Assembly (NCBI RefSeq): GCF_011927765.1
Contig: NZ_JAATJG010000001.1
Coordinates: forward strand, 344,792-408,791
From: Wenyingzhuangia aestuarii
Lineage (GTDB): Bacteria > Bacteroidota > Bacteroidia > Flavobacteriales > Flavobacteriaceae
Reading direction: 5' to 3'
Length of the DNA stretch: 64,000 nucleotides
Positions 10,610 through 17,951 of this stretch are shown in pieces. How positions within the stretch are numbered: position 1 is the stretch's first letter; the number at the start of each line of letters is the position of its first letter. Below the pieces are notes generated by a model. That model made no database searches. It saw only the letters and a program-made list of their open reading frames with translations, and was not told the DNA's origin. The position numbers were made by a program, and so were the translations under genes.

Positions 10610-10723
10610 TTTTCTATAGTTTAATTTTTTTGTGAAAATACAAAAATGCATAGAACATAAAAAAAACTATTTACGGCTTAATTATAGAATTTAAAAGGAG
10701 TTTGTAAATACAATATAAATAAT

Positions 10724-10753
10724 TTGCAAATTCAAAAATCTATGCTAAATTTG
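10724..10753 (+). promoter_or_regulatory. trp operon promoter
   Basis: TTG at 10724-10726, then 19 bp, then TAAATTTG at 10746-10753. This is an exact match to the Bacteroidetes promoter consensus (TTG and TAnnTTTG). Transcription should start at about 10758-10760, at the leader peptide ATG. Confidence 0.8.
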
Positions 10754-10758
10754 TGTCA

Positions 10759-10806
10759 ATGAAATTAGATGCAAAAAATACTTGGTGGTGGCACACTCTT
10801 AATTAA
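10759..10806 (+). CDS. trpL: trp leader peptide
   Basis: A 15-codon frame encodes MKLDAKNTWWWHTLN, with three Trp codons in a row at codons 9-11. It lies between the promoter and a Rho-independent terminator upstream of trpE, the standard arrangement for ribosome-mediated attenuation. Stalling at the Trp codons when charged tRNA-Trp is scarce would leave the segment after the stop codon free to pair with the terminator. The start codon coincides with the predicted transcription start, so this short message may be leaderless. Confidence 0.85.
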   Translation: MKLDAKNTWWWHTLN

Positions 10807-10879
10807 TTAAGCGTGAGTATCATTGTGTATTTTAATCAAATAAATATATAAAGGCTTATCTCACGATAAGCCTTTTTTT
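10798..10879 (+). promoter_or_regulatory. trp attenuator
   Basis: Three pairing options are visible. CTTAATTAATTAAG at 10798-10811 is a perfect palindrome over the leader stop codon. CGTGAG at 10812-10817 can pair with CTCACG at 10860-10865 (antiterminator). AAAGGCTTATC at 10850-10860 pairs with GATAAGCCTTT at 10865-10875 around a TCAC loop and is followed by a T run to 10879 (terminator). The antiterminator uses the terminator loop and one stem base at each side, so the two structures compete. This predicts read-through into trpE under Trp starvation. Confidence 0.8.
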
Positions 10880-10900
10880 ATAGTGTATAAGCAAAAGTTT

Positions 10901-12295
10901 ATGAACAAATTACAATTTAAGACAGTTATTAAAGAGCAGATGGCCGATACGGTGACACCTGTTGGATTATATTTAAGATTTAGAGATCGTTTTGCCAACA
11001 CCGTTTTGTTGGAAGGATCTGATTATCATTCAAAAGAAGACAGTTATACCTTTATAGGAATAGATCCTTTAGTTCATATAAAAGCAGAAAATCATTCGTT
11101 AAGTTTAAGTTATAGAGACGAAGTGTTGAGTACAGCTCCCTTGCAAAGAAATTTTCACGAAGTATTTCAGTACTATTCGGATTTAATTCAGACAGATTCT
11201 CCTGCAGAATACAAAGCGTTTAACGGTTTGTATGGATATACAACCTATGATGCCGTTCAGTATTTTGAGAACATCAAACTACAAGCAAAACAAGCAGAGT
11301 CTGCCATTCCGTTTTTACACTATAGTTTTTTTAGATATGTAATTGCGATCAATCACTTTAATGATGAAATGATCATTATAGAAAATGTGCCAGAAGGAGA
11401 GGAGTCTAATATTGATGAAATCATCACTATTGTAAACAATCCAACCTATCAAACACAAGATTTTTCATACGATGAAACAACAGAAACATCAAGCTGTACC
11501 GATGAAGAATTTAAAGAATATGTAAGAAAAGGAAAAGCACATTGTAAACGCGGAGATGTATTCCAAATTGTACTTTCTAGACAGTTTCAACAAAAATACA
11601 AAGGAGACGATTTTAACTTATATAGAGCCTTGCGTTCTATCAATCCATCACCTTATTTGTTTTATTTTGATTATGGTAGTTTCCGTTTGATGGGATCATC
11701 ACCAGAAGCACAAATTAAAGTTAAAAAAGGAATTGCAACCATCAACCCTATTGCAGGAACGTTCAGAAGAACTGGAAATGCAAAAGAAGATCATTTGTTA
11801 GGAGAAAAATTATCAAACGATAAAAAAGAAACGGCAGAACACGTAATGTTGGTAGATTTAGCTCGTAACGATATGAGTAAACATGCCGATAATGTTACAG
11901 TAGAAGTGTTTAAAGAAGTGCAATACTTTAGCCATGTAATTCACTTAGTATCTACCGTAGTAGGAAAAATAAAAGGAGATCCTTTAAAAATTGTGGGAGA
12001 TACCTTTCCTGCAGGAACTTTGAGTGGAGCTCCAAAATACAAAGCCATGCAGTTAATAGATACATACGAATCTCAAAGTAGAGGTTTTTACGGTGGAGCT
12101 GTTGGTGTAATTGGTTTGTCTGGAGAAGTAAATCTAGCCATTGCTATTCGTTCTTTTGTAAGTAAAAACAACACCTTGTATTACCAAGCAGGAGCCGGAA
12201 TTGTAATGGATTCTACCGAAGAAGGAGAATTACAAGAAGTAAATAATAAGTTAGCAGCATTAAAGAAAGCTTTAGTGTTAGCTGAGAAAATATAA
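10901..12295 (+). CDS. trpE: anthranilate synthase component I
   Basis: Converts chorismate to anthranilate using ammonia delivered by TrpG, the first step of tryptophan synthesis. At 464 aa the length fits. The chorismate-binding domain is clear from about residue 190: FQIVLSRQF, PSPYLFYFDYG, SSPEAQIKV, PIAGTFRRTG, LVDLARNDM, FPAGTLSGAPK and the final AGAGIVMDS with EEGELQEV. I start at ATG 10901 (MNKLQFKTV); the upstream GTG at 10883 lies too close to the attenuator T run. It is the first structural gene of the trp operon, under attenuator control. Confidence 0.95.
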   Translation: MNKLQFKTVIKEQMADTVTPVGLYLRFRDRFANTVLLEGSDYHSKEDSYTFIGIDPLVHIKAENHSLSLSYRDEVLSTAPLQRNFHEVFQYYSDLIQTDSPAEYKAFNGLYGYTTYDAVQYFENIKLQAKQAESAIPFLHYSFFRYVIAINHFNDEMIIIENVPEGEESNIDEIITIVNNPTYQTQDFSYDETTETSSCTDEEFKEYVRKGKAHCKRGDVFQIVLSRQFQQKYKGDDFNLYRALRSINPSPYLFYFDYGSFRLMGSSPEAQIKVKKGIATINPIAGTFRRTGNAKEDHLLGEKLSNDKKETAEHVMLVDLARNDMSKHADNVTVEVFKEVQYFSHVIHLVSTVVGKIKGDPLKIVGDTFPAGTLSGAPKYKAMQLIDTYESQSRGFYGGAVGVIGLSGEVNLAIAIRSFVSKNNTLYYQAGAGIVMDSTEEGELQEVNNKLAALKKALVLAEKI

Positions 12296-12299
12296 ATTT

Positions 12300-12389
12300 A
12301 GTATCTGGTAACAGGTAGCAAGTATCAAGATAAATAGTGTAACAACTAAAAGTCAAATACTAGATACCCGATACTAGATACCTGATACT
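12300..12389. repeat. hairpin-forming repeat between trpE and trpG
   Basis: The ends form an inverted repeat with one mismatch (AGTATCTGGTA at 12300-12310 against TACCTGATACT at 12379-12389). Inside are two adjacent 14-bp units, ACTAGATACCCGAT at 12359 and ACTAGATACCTGAT at 12373. It encodes nothing and has no T run. It resembles repeats in other gaps of this operon in design but not in sequence. Confidence 0.65.
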
Positions 12390-12396
12390 ATAAAGT

Positions 12397-12984
12397 ATGA
12401 AAATATTAATATTAGATAACTACGATTCTTTTACTTACAACCTAGTGCATATGGTAGAAGAAATTACGGGAGAAACTCCAGATGTTTTTAGAAATGATGA
12501 AATTCCTTTAGAGGTTGTTGGGGAATATGATTTAATTATGTTGTCTCCAGGACCAGGGGTGCCAGATGAAGCAGGGATTTTAAAAGAAGTAATTGCTGAA
12601 TATGCAGGTAAAAAACCAATTTTTGGAGTGTGTTTAGGGTTGCAAGCAATTACCGAAGTTTTTGGAGGGAAGATTATCAACATGGACAATGTATTCCATG
12701 GAGTAGCTACAGAAATGAAAGTGGTAGATGAAAATGCTTTAATTTTTAAACAATTACCACAATTTTTTACAGCAGCCAGATATCATTCTTGGATTGCAGA
12801 TCCTGCTACCATGCCTAAAGTATTAAAAGTAACTTGTGTAGATGAAGATGGAGGTGTAATGGCTATTGAACACAAAGATTTTAATATTAGTGCTGTGCAA
12901 TTTCATCCAGAATCTATTTTAACACCAGATGGTGAAATTATGGTTCGTGAGTTTATAGAAAATGCAAAAAAGAACTTATCATAG
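12397..12984 (+). CDS. trpG: anthranilate synthase component II (glutamine amidotransferase)
   Basis: Class I glutamine amidotransferase of 195 aa that supplies ammonia to TrpE. It begins with LDNYDSFTYN, has the oxyanion motif SPGPGVPDE and the nucleophile Cys in GVCLGLQA (about residue 80), and ends with the His-Glu pair in QFHPESILT. There is no fused trpD domain, unlike the enterobacterial fusion. It sits between trpE and trpD with a repeat in front. The same subunit can serve 4-amino-4-deoxychorismate synthase in some bacteria, but the operon context makes the Trp role primary. Confidence 0.95.
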   Translation: MKILILDNYDSFTYNLVHMVEEITGETPDVFRNDEIPLEVVGEYDLIMLSPGPGVPDEAGILKEVIAEYAGKKPIFGVCLGLQAITEVFGGKIINMDNVFHGVATEMKVVDENALIFKQLPQFFTAARYHSWIADPATMPKVLKVTCVDEDGGVMAIEHKDFNISAVQFHPESILTPDGEIMVREFIENAKKNLS

Positions 12985-13009
12985 ATAGTTAAAGGTCAAA
13001 GAAATTAAG

Positions 13010-13999
13010 ATGAAGAAAATATTAGCAAGATTATTTGAGTACGAAAAGCTAAATCAGCAAGAAGCAAAAGAAATTTTAATTAGAATTGCTAACCGTGAAT
13101 TTAACAATTCACAAATAGCCTCTTTTGTAACAGTGTTTTTAATGAGACCTATCACTGTTAATGAATTGGCAGGTTTTAGAGAGGCTTTGTTAGAGTTAGC
13201 CTTAAAAATAGATTTGTCAGAATTCAATACCATCGATTTGTGTGGAACGGGAGGAGACGGAAAAAACACTTTTAATATTTCTACATTAACTTCGTTTATT
13301 GTTGCAGGTACAGGTCATAAAGTAGCTAAACACGGTAACTATGGAGTGTCTTCTGCATCGGGTTCTTCTAACATGTTAGAGCATTTAGGATACCAATTTA
13401 GCAAAGAGGAAAGTGCTTTAAAAAATCAGTTAGACAAAGCGAATATTTGCTTTTTACATGCCCCTTTATTCCATCCTGCAATGGCAGCTGTTGGACCTGT
13501 AAGAAAAGAAATGGCAGTAAAAACATTCTTTAACATGTTGGGGCCTTTGGTAAATCCAAGTATGCCACAAAATCAGTTAGTAGGAGTGTTTAACTTACAA
13601 GTAGGTAGGTTGTATAAAAATATTTTAAGTCAGACTTCTGATAATTTTGCAGTAGTACATGCTTTAGATGGTTATGATGAAATTTCTTTAACAGGGCCGT
13701 TTAAAATTTACACCAAAGACAACGAACAAATATTAAGACCTAGCGACTTTCATTTAAATCAGATTCAACAATCTGATATTTATGGAGGGAATACAGTGCC
13801 CGAAGCCGCTGAAATTTTTATCAATATTTTAGATGGAAAAGGAACCGAAGCACAGAATAATGTAGTCTTAACAAACGCAGCATTTGCTTTAAGAACTTTT
13901 GATCCTAGCAAATCTTTTAAAGAAGCGTTTGCGCAAGCACAAGATAGTTTAATGGGAGGAAAAGCTAAGCAAAGTTTAAAAACTTTATTAGAGTTATAA
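13010..13999 (+). CDS. trpD: anthranilate phosphoribosyltransferase
   Basis: Transfers the phosphoribosyl group of PRPP to anthranilate, the second step of the pathway. The protein is 329 aa, normal length. The PRPP-binding loop is DLCGTGGDGKNTFN (about residues 75-88). KHGNYGVSSASGSSNMLE, FLHAPLFHPAM and the RKEMAVKTFFNMLGPL region are also typical. It starts 25 bp after trpG ends. The gap that follows holds a 23-nt repeat shared with the trpF-trpB gap. Confidence 0.95.
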   Translation: MKKILARLFEYEKLNQQEAKEILIRIANREFNNSQIASFVTVFLMRPITVNELAGFREALLELALKIDLSEFNTIDLCGTGGDGKNTFNISTLTSFIVAGTGHKVAKHGNYGVSSASGSSNMLEHLGYQFSKEESALKNQLDKANICFLHAPLFHPAMAAVGPVRKEMAVKTFFNMLGPLVNPSMPQNQLVGVFNLQVGRLYKNILSQTSDNFAVVHALDGYDEISLTGPFKIYTKDNEQILRPSDFHLNQIQQSDIYGGNTVPEAAEIFINILDGKGTEAQNNVVLTNAAFALRTFDPSKSFKEAFAQAQDSLMGGKAKQSLKTLLEL

Positions 14000-14002
14000 A
14001 AA

Positions 14003-14042
14003 GGTGTTCGAGCGGAGTCGAGAACAAAGCAGAGTTGAGAAC
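14003..14042. repeat. dispersed repeat fragment between trpD and trpC
   Basis: The 23-nt sequence at 14003-14025 (core TTCGAGCGGAGTCGAGAAC) recurs exactly at 15624-15646 and 15823-15845. A degenerate second unit, GCAGAGTTGAGAAC, follows at 14029-14042. TCGA on both sides of GCGGAG can form a small hairpin. It lies just after the trpD stop and encodes nothing. Confidence 0.7.
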
Positions 14043-14078
14043 AATACGAATTAGTTAAAATTTGTAATTAATTATAAG

Positions 14079-14861
14079 ATGACAATATTAGAGAAAATTG
14101 TAGCCTACAAAAAGAAAGAAGTTGCAAAAATAAAGGCAGAAGTACAGGTTAAAAAACTAGTAGAAAGTCCTAATTTTAAAAGAACACCACTTTCTTTAAA
14201 AAGATCATTATTAGAGGTTGGGTCTACAGGAATTATTGCAGAATTTAAAAGACAATCTCCTTCTAAAGGAATTATAAACGATAAGGCAGATATTTTAGAG
14301 GTAACCAACGGTTATTTAGATGCCAATGTAGCCGCACAATCTATTTTAACAGATACCCACTTTTTTGGAGGTACCATGGTAGATTTAATGAAAGCTAGAA
14401 GCATAAATGAAACCAAGCCAATTCTTAGAAAAGATTTTATTGTAGATGGTTTTCAAATTGTAGAAGCCAAAGCTATTGGTGCCGATGTTATTTTATTAAT
14501 TGCGGCTTGTTTAACTAAAGAAGAGTTAAAGCAATACGGTCAATTAGCAACAGATTTAGGAATGGATGTGTTGTACGAAGTTCATACCCAAGAGGAGTTA
14601 GATAAAATTGATGCAAACGATAAAATTATCGGAATTAACAACAGAAACTTAAACACATTTAAGGTAGATTTAGAACATTCTATTGAGTTAGCTTCTAAAA
14701 TTCCAGACAATTGTGTAAAGGTTTCAGAGAGTGGAATTAGCGATCCTAAAATTATTATGGGATTAAAACAATATGGTTTTCAAGGATTCTTAATTGGAGA
14801 GAATTTTATGAAAACAGACAATCCAGGTCAGGCTTGTAAAGAGTTTATTGGACAAATGTAA
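14079..14861 (+). CDS. trpC: indole-3-glycerol-phosphate synthase
   Basis: Closes the indole ring by converting CdRP to indole-3-glycerol phosphate. It is a 260-aa TIM barrel not fused to TrpF. Family signatures are IIAEFKRQSPSKG (about residues 51-63), LRKDFIVDGFQIVEAKAIGADVILLI, IIGINNRNL and KVSESGI near the phosphate site. It lies between trpD and trpF in the same direction, with small gaps filled by repeats. Confidence 0.95.
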   Translation: MTILEKIVAYKKKEVAKIKAEVQVKKLVESPNFKRTPLSLKRSLLEVGSTGIIAEFKRQSPSKGIINDKADILEVTNGYLDANVAAQSILTDTHFFGGTMVDLMKARSINETKPILRKDFIVDGFQIVEAKAIGADVILLIAACLTKEELKQYGQLATDLGMDVLYEVHTQEELDKIDANDKIIGINNRNLNTFKVDLEHSIELASKIPDNCVKVSESGISDPKIIMGLKQYGFQGFLIGENFMKTDNPGQACKEFIGQM

Positions 14862-14866
14862 AATAT

Positions 14867-14945
14867 AGTACAAAGTAAATAGTAAAGAGTACAAAGATAG
14901 CGTAGCTACGGTACTCAATACTTAATACTCAGTACTCAGTACTTT
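14867..14945. repeat. AGTACT-type repeat between trpC and trpF
   Basis: A run of AGTAC-containing units forms imperfect inverted arms around GCGTAGCTAC. The 56-nt part 14888-14943 matches 15921-15976, in front of trpB, with only five differences. Both copies end within 6-10 nt of the next start codon, so they form the 5' flank of trpF and trpB. Confidence 0.7.
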
Positions 14946-14951
14946 AAAAAT

Positions 14952-15581
14952 ATGAAAATCAAAGTTTGTGGAATGAAGCACGAGGAGAATATAAAAGCAG
15001 TAGCGGGTTTACAGCCAGATTATATGGGGTTTATATTCTATCCAAAATCGCCACGTAATTTTGAAGGTGCTATTCCTAAAATGGATGAACACATCAAAAA
15101 AACAGGAGTGTTTGTAAATGCCCCTATAGATTTTGTATTAGAAAAAGTAAAACAATACGGTTTTAAAGCGGTACAATTACACGGATCAGAATCGGTAGCC
15201 TATTGTCAAGAACTAATCAGTCACGATTTAGATATTGAGTTATTTAAAGTCTTTTCAATTAAAGACGAGTTTGATTTTTCTGTACTAAAAAATTACGAAC
15301 CTTTTGTAAATTACTTCCTGTTTGATACCAAAGGAAAAGACAAAGGAGGGAATGGTTATACGTTTGATTGGTCGGTGCTAAAACAATACCCATCAACCAA
15401 ACCTTTTATTTTAAGTGGAGGTATAGGAGTTGATGAAATAGAAAAAGTAAAAGAAATTTTAAAAACAGAATTGCCTATTTATGCTTTGGACATCAATAGC
15501 AAATTTGAAACTGAACCTGCTGTAAAAGATGTGGCCTTGTTACAGCAATTTTTTAATGAAATAAAAGGTCTTGGAGCGTAG
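14952..15581 (+). CDS. trpF: phosphoribosylanthranilate isomerase
   Basis: Amadori isomerisation of phosphoribosylanthranilate to CdRP. It is a 209-aa TIM barrel with the N-terminal KVCGMKHEENI carrying the catalytic Cys7, then DYMGFIFYPKSPR, VGVFVN-like (KTGVFVNAP), AVQLHGSE, and catalytic Asp in LFDTKGKDKGGNG. ILSGGIG and ALDINSKFE form the phosphate site. The last codons (IKGLGA and the TAG stop) lie inside a 121-bp repeat whose second copy is 199 bp downstream, so the C-terminal tail appears to be supplied by the repeat. Confidence 0.94.
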   Translation: MKIKVCGMKHEENIKAVAGLQPDYMGFIFYPKSPRNFEGAIPKMDEHIKKTGVFVNAPIDFVLEKVKQYGFKAVQLHGSESVAYCQELISHDLDIELFKVFSIKDEFDFSVLKNYEPFVNYFLFDTKGKDKGGNGYTFDWSVLKQYPSTKPFILSGGIGVDEIEKVKEILKTELPIYALDINSKFETEPAVKDVALLQQFFNEIKGLGA

Positions 15582-15679
15582 CCAAGAAGTCAAGGAATAA
15601 AAAGGTAATAAAGAAGTGTAAAGGGTGTTCGAGCGGAGTCGAGAACTATTATATCACGACTAAGCTTGATGACCAAGAA
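15559..15679. repeat. 121-bp repeat, copy 1 (overlaps the end of trpF)
   Basis: This copy matches 15758-15878 over 121 bp with about eight differences. It contains a hairpin CTTGG-AGCGTAG-CCAAG near its start and the GAGCGGAGTCGAGAAC core at 15624-15646. The first 23 bp are coding and provide the last trpF codons and stop. Confidence 0.85.
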
Positions 15680-15757
15680 GGTAAAAAAGAGTATTGATTT
15701 GTTATTCGTTTAGTTGTTTAATCAACTTAAGACTTTAACAGATTCGTAAATAAATAT

Positions 15758-15878
15758 AAATAAAAGGTCTTGGAGCGTAGCCAAGAAGTCAAGGAATAAA
15801 AAGGTAATAAAGAAATGTAAAGGGTGTTCGAGCGGAGTCGAGAACTATTGCATTCCGACTAAGCTCGATGACCTAGAA
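15758..15878. repeat. 121-bp repeat, copy 2
   Basis: This is the second copy of the element at 15559-15679, in the same orientation and offset by exactly 199 bp with no indels. It includes the CTTGG/CCAAG hairpin and the GAGCGGAGTCGAGAAC core at 15823-15845. Confidence 0.85.
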
Positions 15879-15899
15879 AATAAAATAGAAACAATAATT

Positions 15900-15976
15900 A
15901 GTACAGAGTATTTAGCACAAAGTACAAAGTGAGCGTAGCTACTGTACTCAACACTCAATACTCAGTACTCAGTACT
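15900..15976. repeat. AGTACT-type repeat in front of trpB
   Basis: Its 56-nt core at 15921-15976 is 91% identical to 14888-14943 in front of trpF. Units of AGTACT and GCGTAGCTAC form imperfect inverted arms. It ends 9 nt before the trpB ATG. Confidence 0.7.
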
Positions 15977-15985
15977 ATATAAATT

Positions 15986-17191
15986 ATGTCAGAATTTCAA
16001 GTAGACGAAAATGGATATTACGGACAGTTTGGAGGAGCTTATATTCCTGAACTATTGTATCCTAATGTAAAGGAATTAGAAGATAATTATTTGGAGATTA
16101 TCAATTCTGAAGCTTTCCAAAAAGAGTATTTGTATTTGTTAAAACAATACGTAGGTAGACCTACACCATTGTATTATGCACCTAACTTATCAGACAAATA
16201 TGGAGCTCATATCTATTTAAAAAGAGAAGATTTAAACCACACAGGTGCTCACAAAATAAACAATACCATTGGGCAAATTTTAATTGCTAAGCATTTAGGT
16301 AAAAAAAGAATTATTGCAGAAACAGGAGCAGGGCAACACGGAGTAGCTACAGCAACAGTTTGTGCGTTAATGAACCTAGAGTGTATTGTGTTTATGGGAG
16401 AGGTAGATATTAAACGTCAATCTCCAAACGTAGCACGTATGCAAATGTTGGGGGCTGAGGTAGTTGCCGCAACAAGCGGAAGCAAAACCTTAAAAGATGC
16501 AACCAACGAAGCTATTCGTGATTGGATTCAACACCCAGAAGAAACCTATTATTTAATAGGATCTGTAGTAGGACCACACCCATATCCAGATATGGTGGCT
16601 CGTTTACAAGCTATTATTTCAGAAGAAATCAAATGGCAGTTAAAAGAACAAACAGGAAAAGAAAATCCAGATACCATTATTGCATGTGTAGGTGGAGGAT
16701 CTAATGCAGCTGGAGCTTTTTATCACTATATGGATGATAAAGAAGTACAGTTAGTAGCGGTAGAAGCTGCTGGTTTAGGAATAGATACCGGAGAAAGTGC
16801 TGCAACATCTCAGTTAGGAGAAGTAGGGGTTATTCATGGTTCTAAAACCATTTTAATACAAGATGAATACGGACAAATTGTAGAGCCTTATTCAATTTCT
16901 GCAGGATTAGATTATCCTGGAGTAGGACCTTTACACGCACATTTGTTTGAAACAAAAAGAGGAACCTTTTTAAACGCAACCGATCAAGAGGCATTAGATG
17001 CTGCCTTTGAATTAACCAAATTAGAAGGAATTATTCCAGCCCTGGAAAGTTCACATGCTTTGGCGGTGTTAGGTAAAATGGATTTGCAAAAAGATCAAGT
17101 AATTGTCATCAATCTATCAGGTAGAGGAGACAAAGATTTAGAAACATATATTACTGAATTAGGTAAAAGACAAGCTAGAGGAGATGAGTAA
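15986..17191 (+). CDS. trpB: tryptophan synthase beta subunit
   Basis: PLP enzyme that condenses indole with serine. The length of 401 aa fits. The PLP lysine is in [11 protein letters not shown] (about residue 91), the conserved [10 protein letters not shown] and [11 protein letters not shown] motifs are present, and GGGSNA binds the cofactor phosphate. The C-terminal SGRGDKD is intact. The start of trpA lies within the end of this gene (8-bp overlap), consistent with coupled synthesis of the alpha2-beta2 complex. A 404-bp repeat-filled gap separates it from trpF. Confidence 0.96.
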
Positions 17192-17951
17192 ATTAACCCA
17201 ATTATTTAAGGAGAAACCAAACAGATTGTGTTCTGTTTATTTCACATCAGGATATCCACAGTTAAATGATACAGTTAGTGTAATTAAAGGTTTAGAAGCT
17301 GCTGGAATAGATTTTTTAGAAGTAGGATTGCCTTATTCAGATCCTATGGCAGATGGACCTACCATTCAAGAAAGTAGTGCTATTGCATTAAAAAATGGAA
17401 TCAACTTAGATGTTATTTTTAAGCAATTAGAAGAAATTAAAAACCAAGTAAATATTCCATTAATTGCTATGGGGTATTTTAACCAAATGGTGCGTTACGG
17501 ATCAGAAAAATTCTGTGAAAAATGTCAGTCAGTAGGAATAGAAACTTTGGTTTTACCAGATATGCCTATGATTGAGTACGAAAAAACTTACAAGGCTATG
17601 TTTGCTAAATACGGGTTGTCTAACGTGTTTTTAATCACACCACAAACATCAGAAGAGCGTATTCGTAAAATTGATGAAATGACCGATGCTTTTATTTATG
17701 TAGTAGCTTCATCGTCTATTACAGGAGCAAAAGGAAGTATTTCGGAAAAGCAAATAGCCTACTTTAATAGAATTAAATCTTACAACCTAAAAAGCACCTT
17801 AATTGCAGGTTTTGGAATTTCTAGTAAAGATACTTTTGATACCGTTTGTGAACATGTAAACGGAGCTATTATTGGATCTGCATTTGTAAAATATGTAGGA
17901 GCCAATGGAGTGAATACAATAAATGGATTTGTAAAAGAAATTATAGGTTAG
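17184..17951 (+). CDS. trpA: tryptophan synthase alpha subunit
   Basis: Cleaves indole-3-glycerol phosphate to indole, which is channelled to TrpB. It is a 255-aa TIM barrel with catalytic Glu in [19 protein letters not shown], the conserved DMPM region, and phosphate-binding GFGISS and GSAFVK. The start overlaps trpB by 8 bp. It is the last gene of the operon; a structured repeat begins at its stop codon, and a terminator follows at 18068. Confidence 0.96.

Follow-up and report, generated by a model that had tools for sequence, protein, structure and literature searches.

The trpEGDCFBA operon of the marine flavobacterium Wenyingzhuangia aestuarii, which lies complete at 10901-17951 (+) in the 64-kb window (the whole stretch of DNA that was analyzed), is preceded by an attenuator that belongs to the known family RF01692 and is not a new kind. 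We consider it probable that this trp attenuator is ribosome mediated and that a leaderless RNA serves as the template for its leader peptide. Taken separately, the attenuator as such, with its presumed response to tryptophan, is close to certain, and leaderless initiation, which depends on a predicted transcription start, is likely. In this study, we established the anatomy, conservation, 2:3 covariation, and energetic logic of the trp attenuator. The less ordinary part seems, from promoter spacing, to be a messenger that begins at the start codon of the peptide.

Anatomy and ribosome-position logic of the attenuator

The attenuator elements, from the -7 box to the terminator, span window positions 10746-10879. 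A divergent gene starts at 10651, separated from the trp leader by 107 nt, and trpE (10901-12295, +), the first gene of the operon, begins 21 nt after the end of the terminator. TrpE is 90-95% identical to sequences from the genus Wenyingzhuangia. The sequence-only reading that preceded this work had proposed a 15-codon frame with three consecutive Trp codons ahead of trpE, and this frame is present as trpL at 10759-10806 (+). It encodes the peptide MKLDAKNTWWWHTLN followed by a stop codon (ATG AAA TTA GAT GCA AAA AAT ACT TGG TGG TGG CAC ACT CTT AAT TAA), with the Trp codons at 10783-10791 preceded by no in-frame ATG, GTG, or TTG other than the start codon. Close relatives have not lost the Trp codons, as WWW is kept in 7/7 genus genomes; the flanking codons change around a conserved WWW and reading frame, and the peptide outside WWW varies even inside the genus. 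Within the operon, a 132-nt direct repeat (15559-15690 and 15758-15889, 92% identical, spacing of 199 nt) occupies much of the gap between trpF and trpB, which is unusually long, and a scan of the window found no likely gene and no Rfam family in this repeat.

The trpL leader combines mutually exclusive 1:2, 2:3, and 3:4 pairings with an intrinsic terminator before the first structural gene. The 1:2 protector hairpin (10794-10815, +; -5.1 kcal/mol) pairs 10794-10796 with 10813-10815 and 10798-10802 with 10807-10811, and the palindrome CTTAATTAATTAAG at 10798-10811 covers the trpL stop codon. Region 2, CGTGAG (10812-10817, +), pairs with region 3, CTCACG (10860-10865, +), which consists of the terminator loop and one stem base on each side. 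Between them, folding alone predicts an AU-rich inner antiterminator stem (10820-10854, +; 10823-10832 with 10842-10851). The intrinsic terminator, formed by regions 3 and 4 (10850-10879, +), has a stem of 11 pairs (10850-10860/10865-10875), the loop TCAC, a hairpin energy of -14.2 kcal/mol, and a run of seven T's at 10873-10879. A terminator scan of the leader region returned two terminator-like sites, which are one hairpin read on both strands, versus 0.3 in shuffled sequences. Thus, the palindrome at the stop codon, the pairing of CGTGAG with the terminator loop, and the Rho-independent terminator that had been read from the sequence could each be located.

In the model that we propose, transcription would begin at 10758 or 10759, and a ribosome would load on the 5'-terminal AUG and trail RNA polymerase. 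When charged tRNA-Trp is ample, the ribosome would reach the stop codon and cover CGTGAG, which would lead to formation of the terminator and an end of the transcript near 10880. When charged tRNA-Trp is scarce, the ribosome would stall on UGG UGG UGG and prevent the 1:2 hairpin. In the stalled state, CGUGAG would pair with CUCACG with the help of the AU-rich inner stem, and the 2:3 pairing would occupy the 5' arm of the terminator, leading to transcription of trpEGDCFBA.

We folded the predicted transcript with the ribosome footprint masked and RNA polymerase near 10866. At the W. aestuarii locus, a ribosome masked on a Trp codon gave the CGUGAG/CUCACG pairing plus the AU-rich inner stem (about -13 kcal/mol), with the inner stem occupying the 5' end of the terminator arm. 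When the mask was placed on the stop codon instead, 2:3 was blocked and the terminator formed; termination was also predicted for untranslated leader RNA. Masked-ribosome folds of 209 leaders contained 2:3 in 203/209 with the ribosome on Trp and in 1/209 with the ribosome on the stop codon, a test that is partly circular in that the helix was preselected as the best pairing (the permutation test described below is free of this). At equilibrium, 2:3 is less stable than the full terminator, and the attenuator model must therefore be a kinetic one; in silico folding is no test of kinetics. An equivalent 1:2 hairpin that sequesters region 2 was present in 204/205 loci.

On the evidence of leader comparisons, the 2:3 antiterminator covaries across Bacteroidota. 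Covariation of CGTGAG with CTCACG in relatives had been put forward as a check on the attenuator, and compensatory change is indeed seen across the Bacteroidota leaders, 209 of which contain 53 distinct 2:3 helices. Variant pairs include CGCTGTGTA/TACACAGCG in Chitinophaga (L221) and GTAAGATT/AATCTTAC (L209). Covariation was assessed for the 2:3 pairing only, by per-locus pairing and permutation, in the 39 variant loci whose loop no longer has the common TCAC core. Pairing with the locus's own partner scored 15.2, versus 10.45 across loci, and 0/10,000 permutations were as high; some of these loci are closely related, and the independent events are fewer than 39. When the 2-to-3 stretch was aligned with MAFFT and analyzed with RNAalifold, some of arm 4 remained in the alignment, and for this reason the inner terminator stem was all that was recovered.

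These results bear on whether the structure could respond to something other than ribosome position, for example as a T-box, as a riboswitch, or as an RNA bound by a protein, with the WWW frame being incidental. The Rfam model would suit such an arrangement, since its structure is a different one, with the Trp codons base-paired. Nevertheless, WWW and its frame persist among changing flanking codons, the pairing beside the stop codon covaries, and no T-box or TRAP was found in the W. aestuarii genome, which makes the probability of this explanation very nearly negligible. TrpR was likewise not found in this genome, and control genomes matched for all three. The proposal of ribosome-mediated attenuation is thus supported by the conservation of WWW in the genus, compensatory change in 2:3, the near-universal 1:2 hairpin, and the ribosome-position folds.

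Promoter and predicted 5' end of the leader RNA

Upstream of trpL we found a match to the Bacteroidota promoter consensus TTTG/TAnnTTTG (PMC6847099), with a weak -33 element, TTTG (10723-10726, +), and a -7 element, TAAATTTG (10746-10753, +), that matches TAnnTTTG exactly, separated by a 19-nt spacer. A scan for E. coli-type sigma-70 promoters did not report the trp leader promoter. The claim of a consensus promoter consequently holds by the Bacteroidota rule and fails by the E. coli one. The -7 element is the sole exact TAnnTTTG on the plus strand between 9254 and 13208, and an exact TAnnTTTG precedes the trp leader in 144/151 relatives.

Transcription in Flavobacterium johnsoniae starts 4-5 nt after the -7 box, with the last G of the box at -5 (PMC6847099). 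Since only 5 nt separate the -7 box from the AUG in W. aestuarii, this rule predicts a transcription start at 10758-10759 (+) and a 5' untranslated region (UTR) of 1 or 0 nt. In leadered relatives, a pyrimidine-A initiator occurs at G+4/G+5, counted from the -7 box. The sequence-only reading, in which the start coincides with the leader ATG, was therefore right to within 1 nt, and the leaderless start is supported, as a prediction, by the conserved 5-nt spacing together with the F. johnsoniae distances. Ordinary leaderless genes peak at a box-to-ATG gap of 4 and trp leaders peak at 5, and one extra 5' nucleotide on the trp leader RNA is therefore likely by this spacing. An out-of-frame open reading frame, MQKILGGGTLLIN, whose ATG at 10769 lies at a gap of 15 (a typical leadered distance), was considered as the leader and rejected; its ATG is missing in the genus relative L013.

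The same attenuator could instead be carried on a leadered RNA whose promoter lies farther upstream or whose start lies before 10750, with the box at 10746 not being the main promoter. By the same spacing rule, the 5' UTR is about 9-18 nt long in most relatives in the family, and leaderless mRNAs are a minority (5.5%) in Flavobacterium psychrophilum (PMC9723704). However, no exact -7 box other than TAAATTTG lies near the leader, the gap is exactly 5 nt in every genus member (7/7 genomes) while leadered relatives range from 13 to 22, and relatives probably use this same box, placed at a different distance, as their promoter. We therefore regard a leadered W. aestuarii RNA as unlikely and retain the leaderless start as the favored reading.

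Predicted leaderless and leadered attenuator peptides in relatives

RF01692 matches were present in 7/7 genus genomes and 275/397 family genomes, and the same leader layout was found upstream of trpE in relatives. The gap distribution of the family trp leaders is bimodal. Among 144 leaders, 33 have a gap of 5, one a gap of 4, one a gap of 6, and ten a gap of 7-8; ten more lie at 9-12, and the other 89 have gaps of at least 13, most of them within a broad leadered peak at 14-22. The leaderless state is thus not universal in the family, and gap-5 leaders occur in several separate clades. In Flavicella, the sister genus, the gap is 17. A gap of 5 is also seen in a separate clade (ten rows, nine genus codes), and the values in Polaribacter, Tenacibaculum, and Lutibacter are mostly 6-8. 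When gaps of at most 6 are mapped onto a TrpE tree (104 rows), at least six changes of state are needed, four of them forced by well-supported branches; the tree is a quick build with some long branches, which makes these counts approximate. From these spacings, relatives seem to have reached a leaderless trp leader several times. Several Tenacibaculum and Polaribacter trp leaders (L168, L174, L175, L179, L180, L184, and L196) open with ATGATG (MM), a doubled start codon close to the predicted 5' end.

For a genome-wide background, we used about 2 Mb from five flavobacterial genomes (G000, G061, G150, G424, and G425; 0.4-0.46 Mb each), with 1,529 genes predicted from open reading frames, 417 of which have a -7 box within 110 nt; start codons came from open reading frames rather than annotation, and the reversed box served as the control. 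Gaps of 4-6 accounted for 43/417 boxes (control, 3), with the mode at 4, indicating that leaderless transcripts form a regular minority mode of about a tenth of boxes. Gaps of 7-8 gave 12 boxes (control, 5), gaps of 9-12 were near background (7 versus 5), and a broad class began at 13, with 114 boxes at 13-22 (control, 15). In the W. aestuarii genome alone, the range of 7-12 is empty. The share of trp leaders at gaps of 4-6 is 24%, which is above the background share, but the loci are related and no probability is attached to the difference. The literature gives 5.5% leaderless mRNAs for F. psychrophilum (PMC9723704) and a share of 3.7% for UTRs shorter than 10 nt in Bacteroides thetaiotaomicron (PMC7366714).

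W. aestuarii also has a histidine attenuator upstream of hisG (L266, contig C17), with the leader MNSIKLHHHHIQYCA, a hairpin, and a T-run. Its -7 box, TATATTTG, lies 17 nt before the ATG, making this leader leadered. Because the his leader has a gap of 17 and the trp leader a gap of 5 in the same genome, the start mode belongs to each operon rather than to the genome. An HHH peptide lies upstream of hisG in 27/28 genomes examined, and the his leaders of several other genera have gaps of 6-8, some of them read by eye on TAnnTTTA boxes. No Ile/Leu/Val leader peptides were found upstream of ilvD. We lean toward the view that attenuator peptides in Bacteroidota have moved repeatedly between a leaderless state, whose AUG is at the 5' end or no more than 1-3 nt from it, and a leadered state, whose UTR is about 9-18 nt long, and that intermediate lengths are avoided genome-wide. 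Bacteroidota mRNAs lack Shine-Dalgarno sequences. If this view is correct, leaderless loading in an attenuator would keep the first ribosome closely coupled to RNA polymerase.

Relationship to known attenuators

The W. aestuarii leader matches RF01692 (Bacteroid-trp) at 10739-10860 with 56.6 bits (cutoff, 49; E value of 3e-4 over 64 kb). It is like the family in phylum, in having a trp biosynthesis gene downstream and an open reading frame with consecutive Trp codons, and in exceeding the gathering score. The model begins 20 nt before the AUG, and its first ~19 positions are promoter DNA here, predicted to be untranscribed; it stops in the 5' arm of the terminator and leaves out both the 2:3 pairing and the terminator. 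Attenuation of this type had been called little described in flavobacteria, which is partly right, but the family was published in 2010 (PMC2864571), the element has been recognized ahead of trp in F. psychrophilum and discussed for that species (PMC6414381), and leader-peptide attenuation in flavobacterial amino acid operons was noted in 2021 in the F. psychrophilum transcriptome (PMC9723704). In the searchable open literature, we came across no description of a leaderless attenuator peptide from Bacteroidota.

Our analyses add the antiterminator and its covariation, a correction of the RF01692 model (promoter DNA in, terminator out), and the repeated alternation between predicted leaderless and leadered starts. 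They give a full, comparatively tested anatomy for an Rfam family whose model omits the antiterminator and the terminator, and they provide many natural leaderless/leadered attenuator pairs in a phylum whose translation initiation does not use Shine-Dalgarno sequences. How Bacteroidota ribosomes find a 5' AUG, and whether leaderless loading affects attenuation, become directly testable.

The E. coli trp leader encodes a tandem-Trp peptide and has 1:2, 2:3, and 3:4 alternatives and an intrinsic terminator before trpE. The W. aestuarii attenuator has all of these in common with it. Unlike in E. coli, the leader has three Trp codons, no TrpR was found, and no Shine-Dalgarno-led leadered start is predicted; RF00513 (Trp_leader) scores 22.1 bits on the W. 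aestuarii leader, below its cutoff of 41.

A leaderless trpL is known in Sinorhizobium meliloti, an alphaproteobacterium, where the trpLE(G) RNA begins at the ATG of a 14-amino-acid Trp leader peptide and trans roles have been shown for rnTrpL and peTrpL (PMC7298713). By analogy, the terminated RNA of ~120 nt (predicted to be a leaderless small mRNA) or its peptide might act in trans in W. aestuarii besides attenuation. We consider this very unlikely, as the W. aestuarii peptide outside WWW differs even within the genus; the predicted layout itself is that of rnTrpL/peTrpL, in which a leaderless trpL RNA is freed by termination (PMC7298713).
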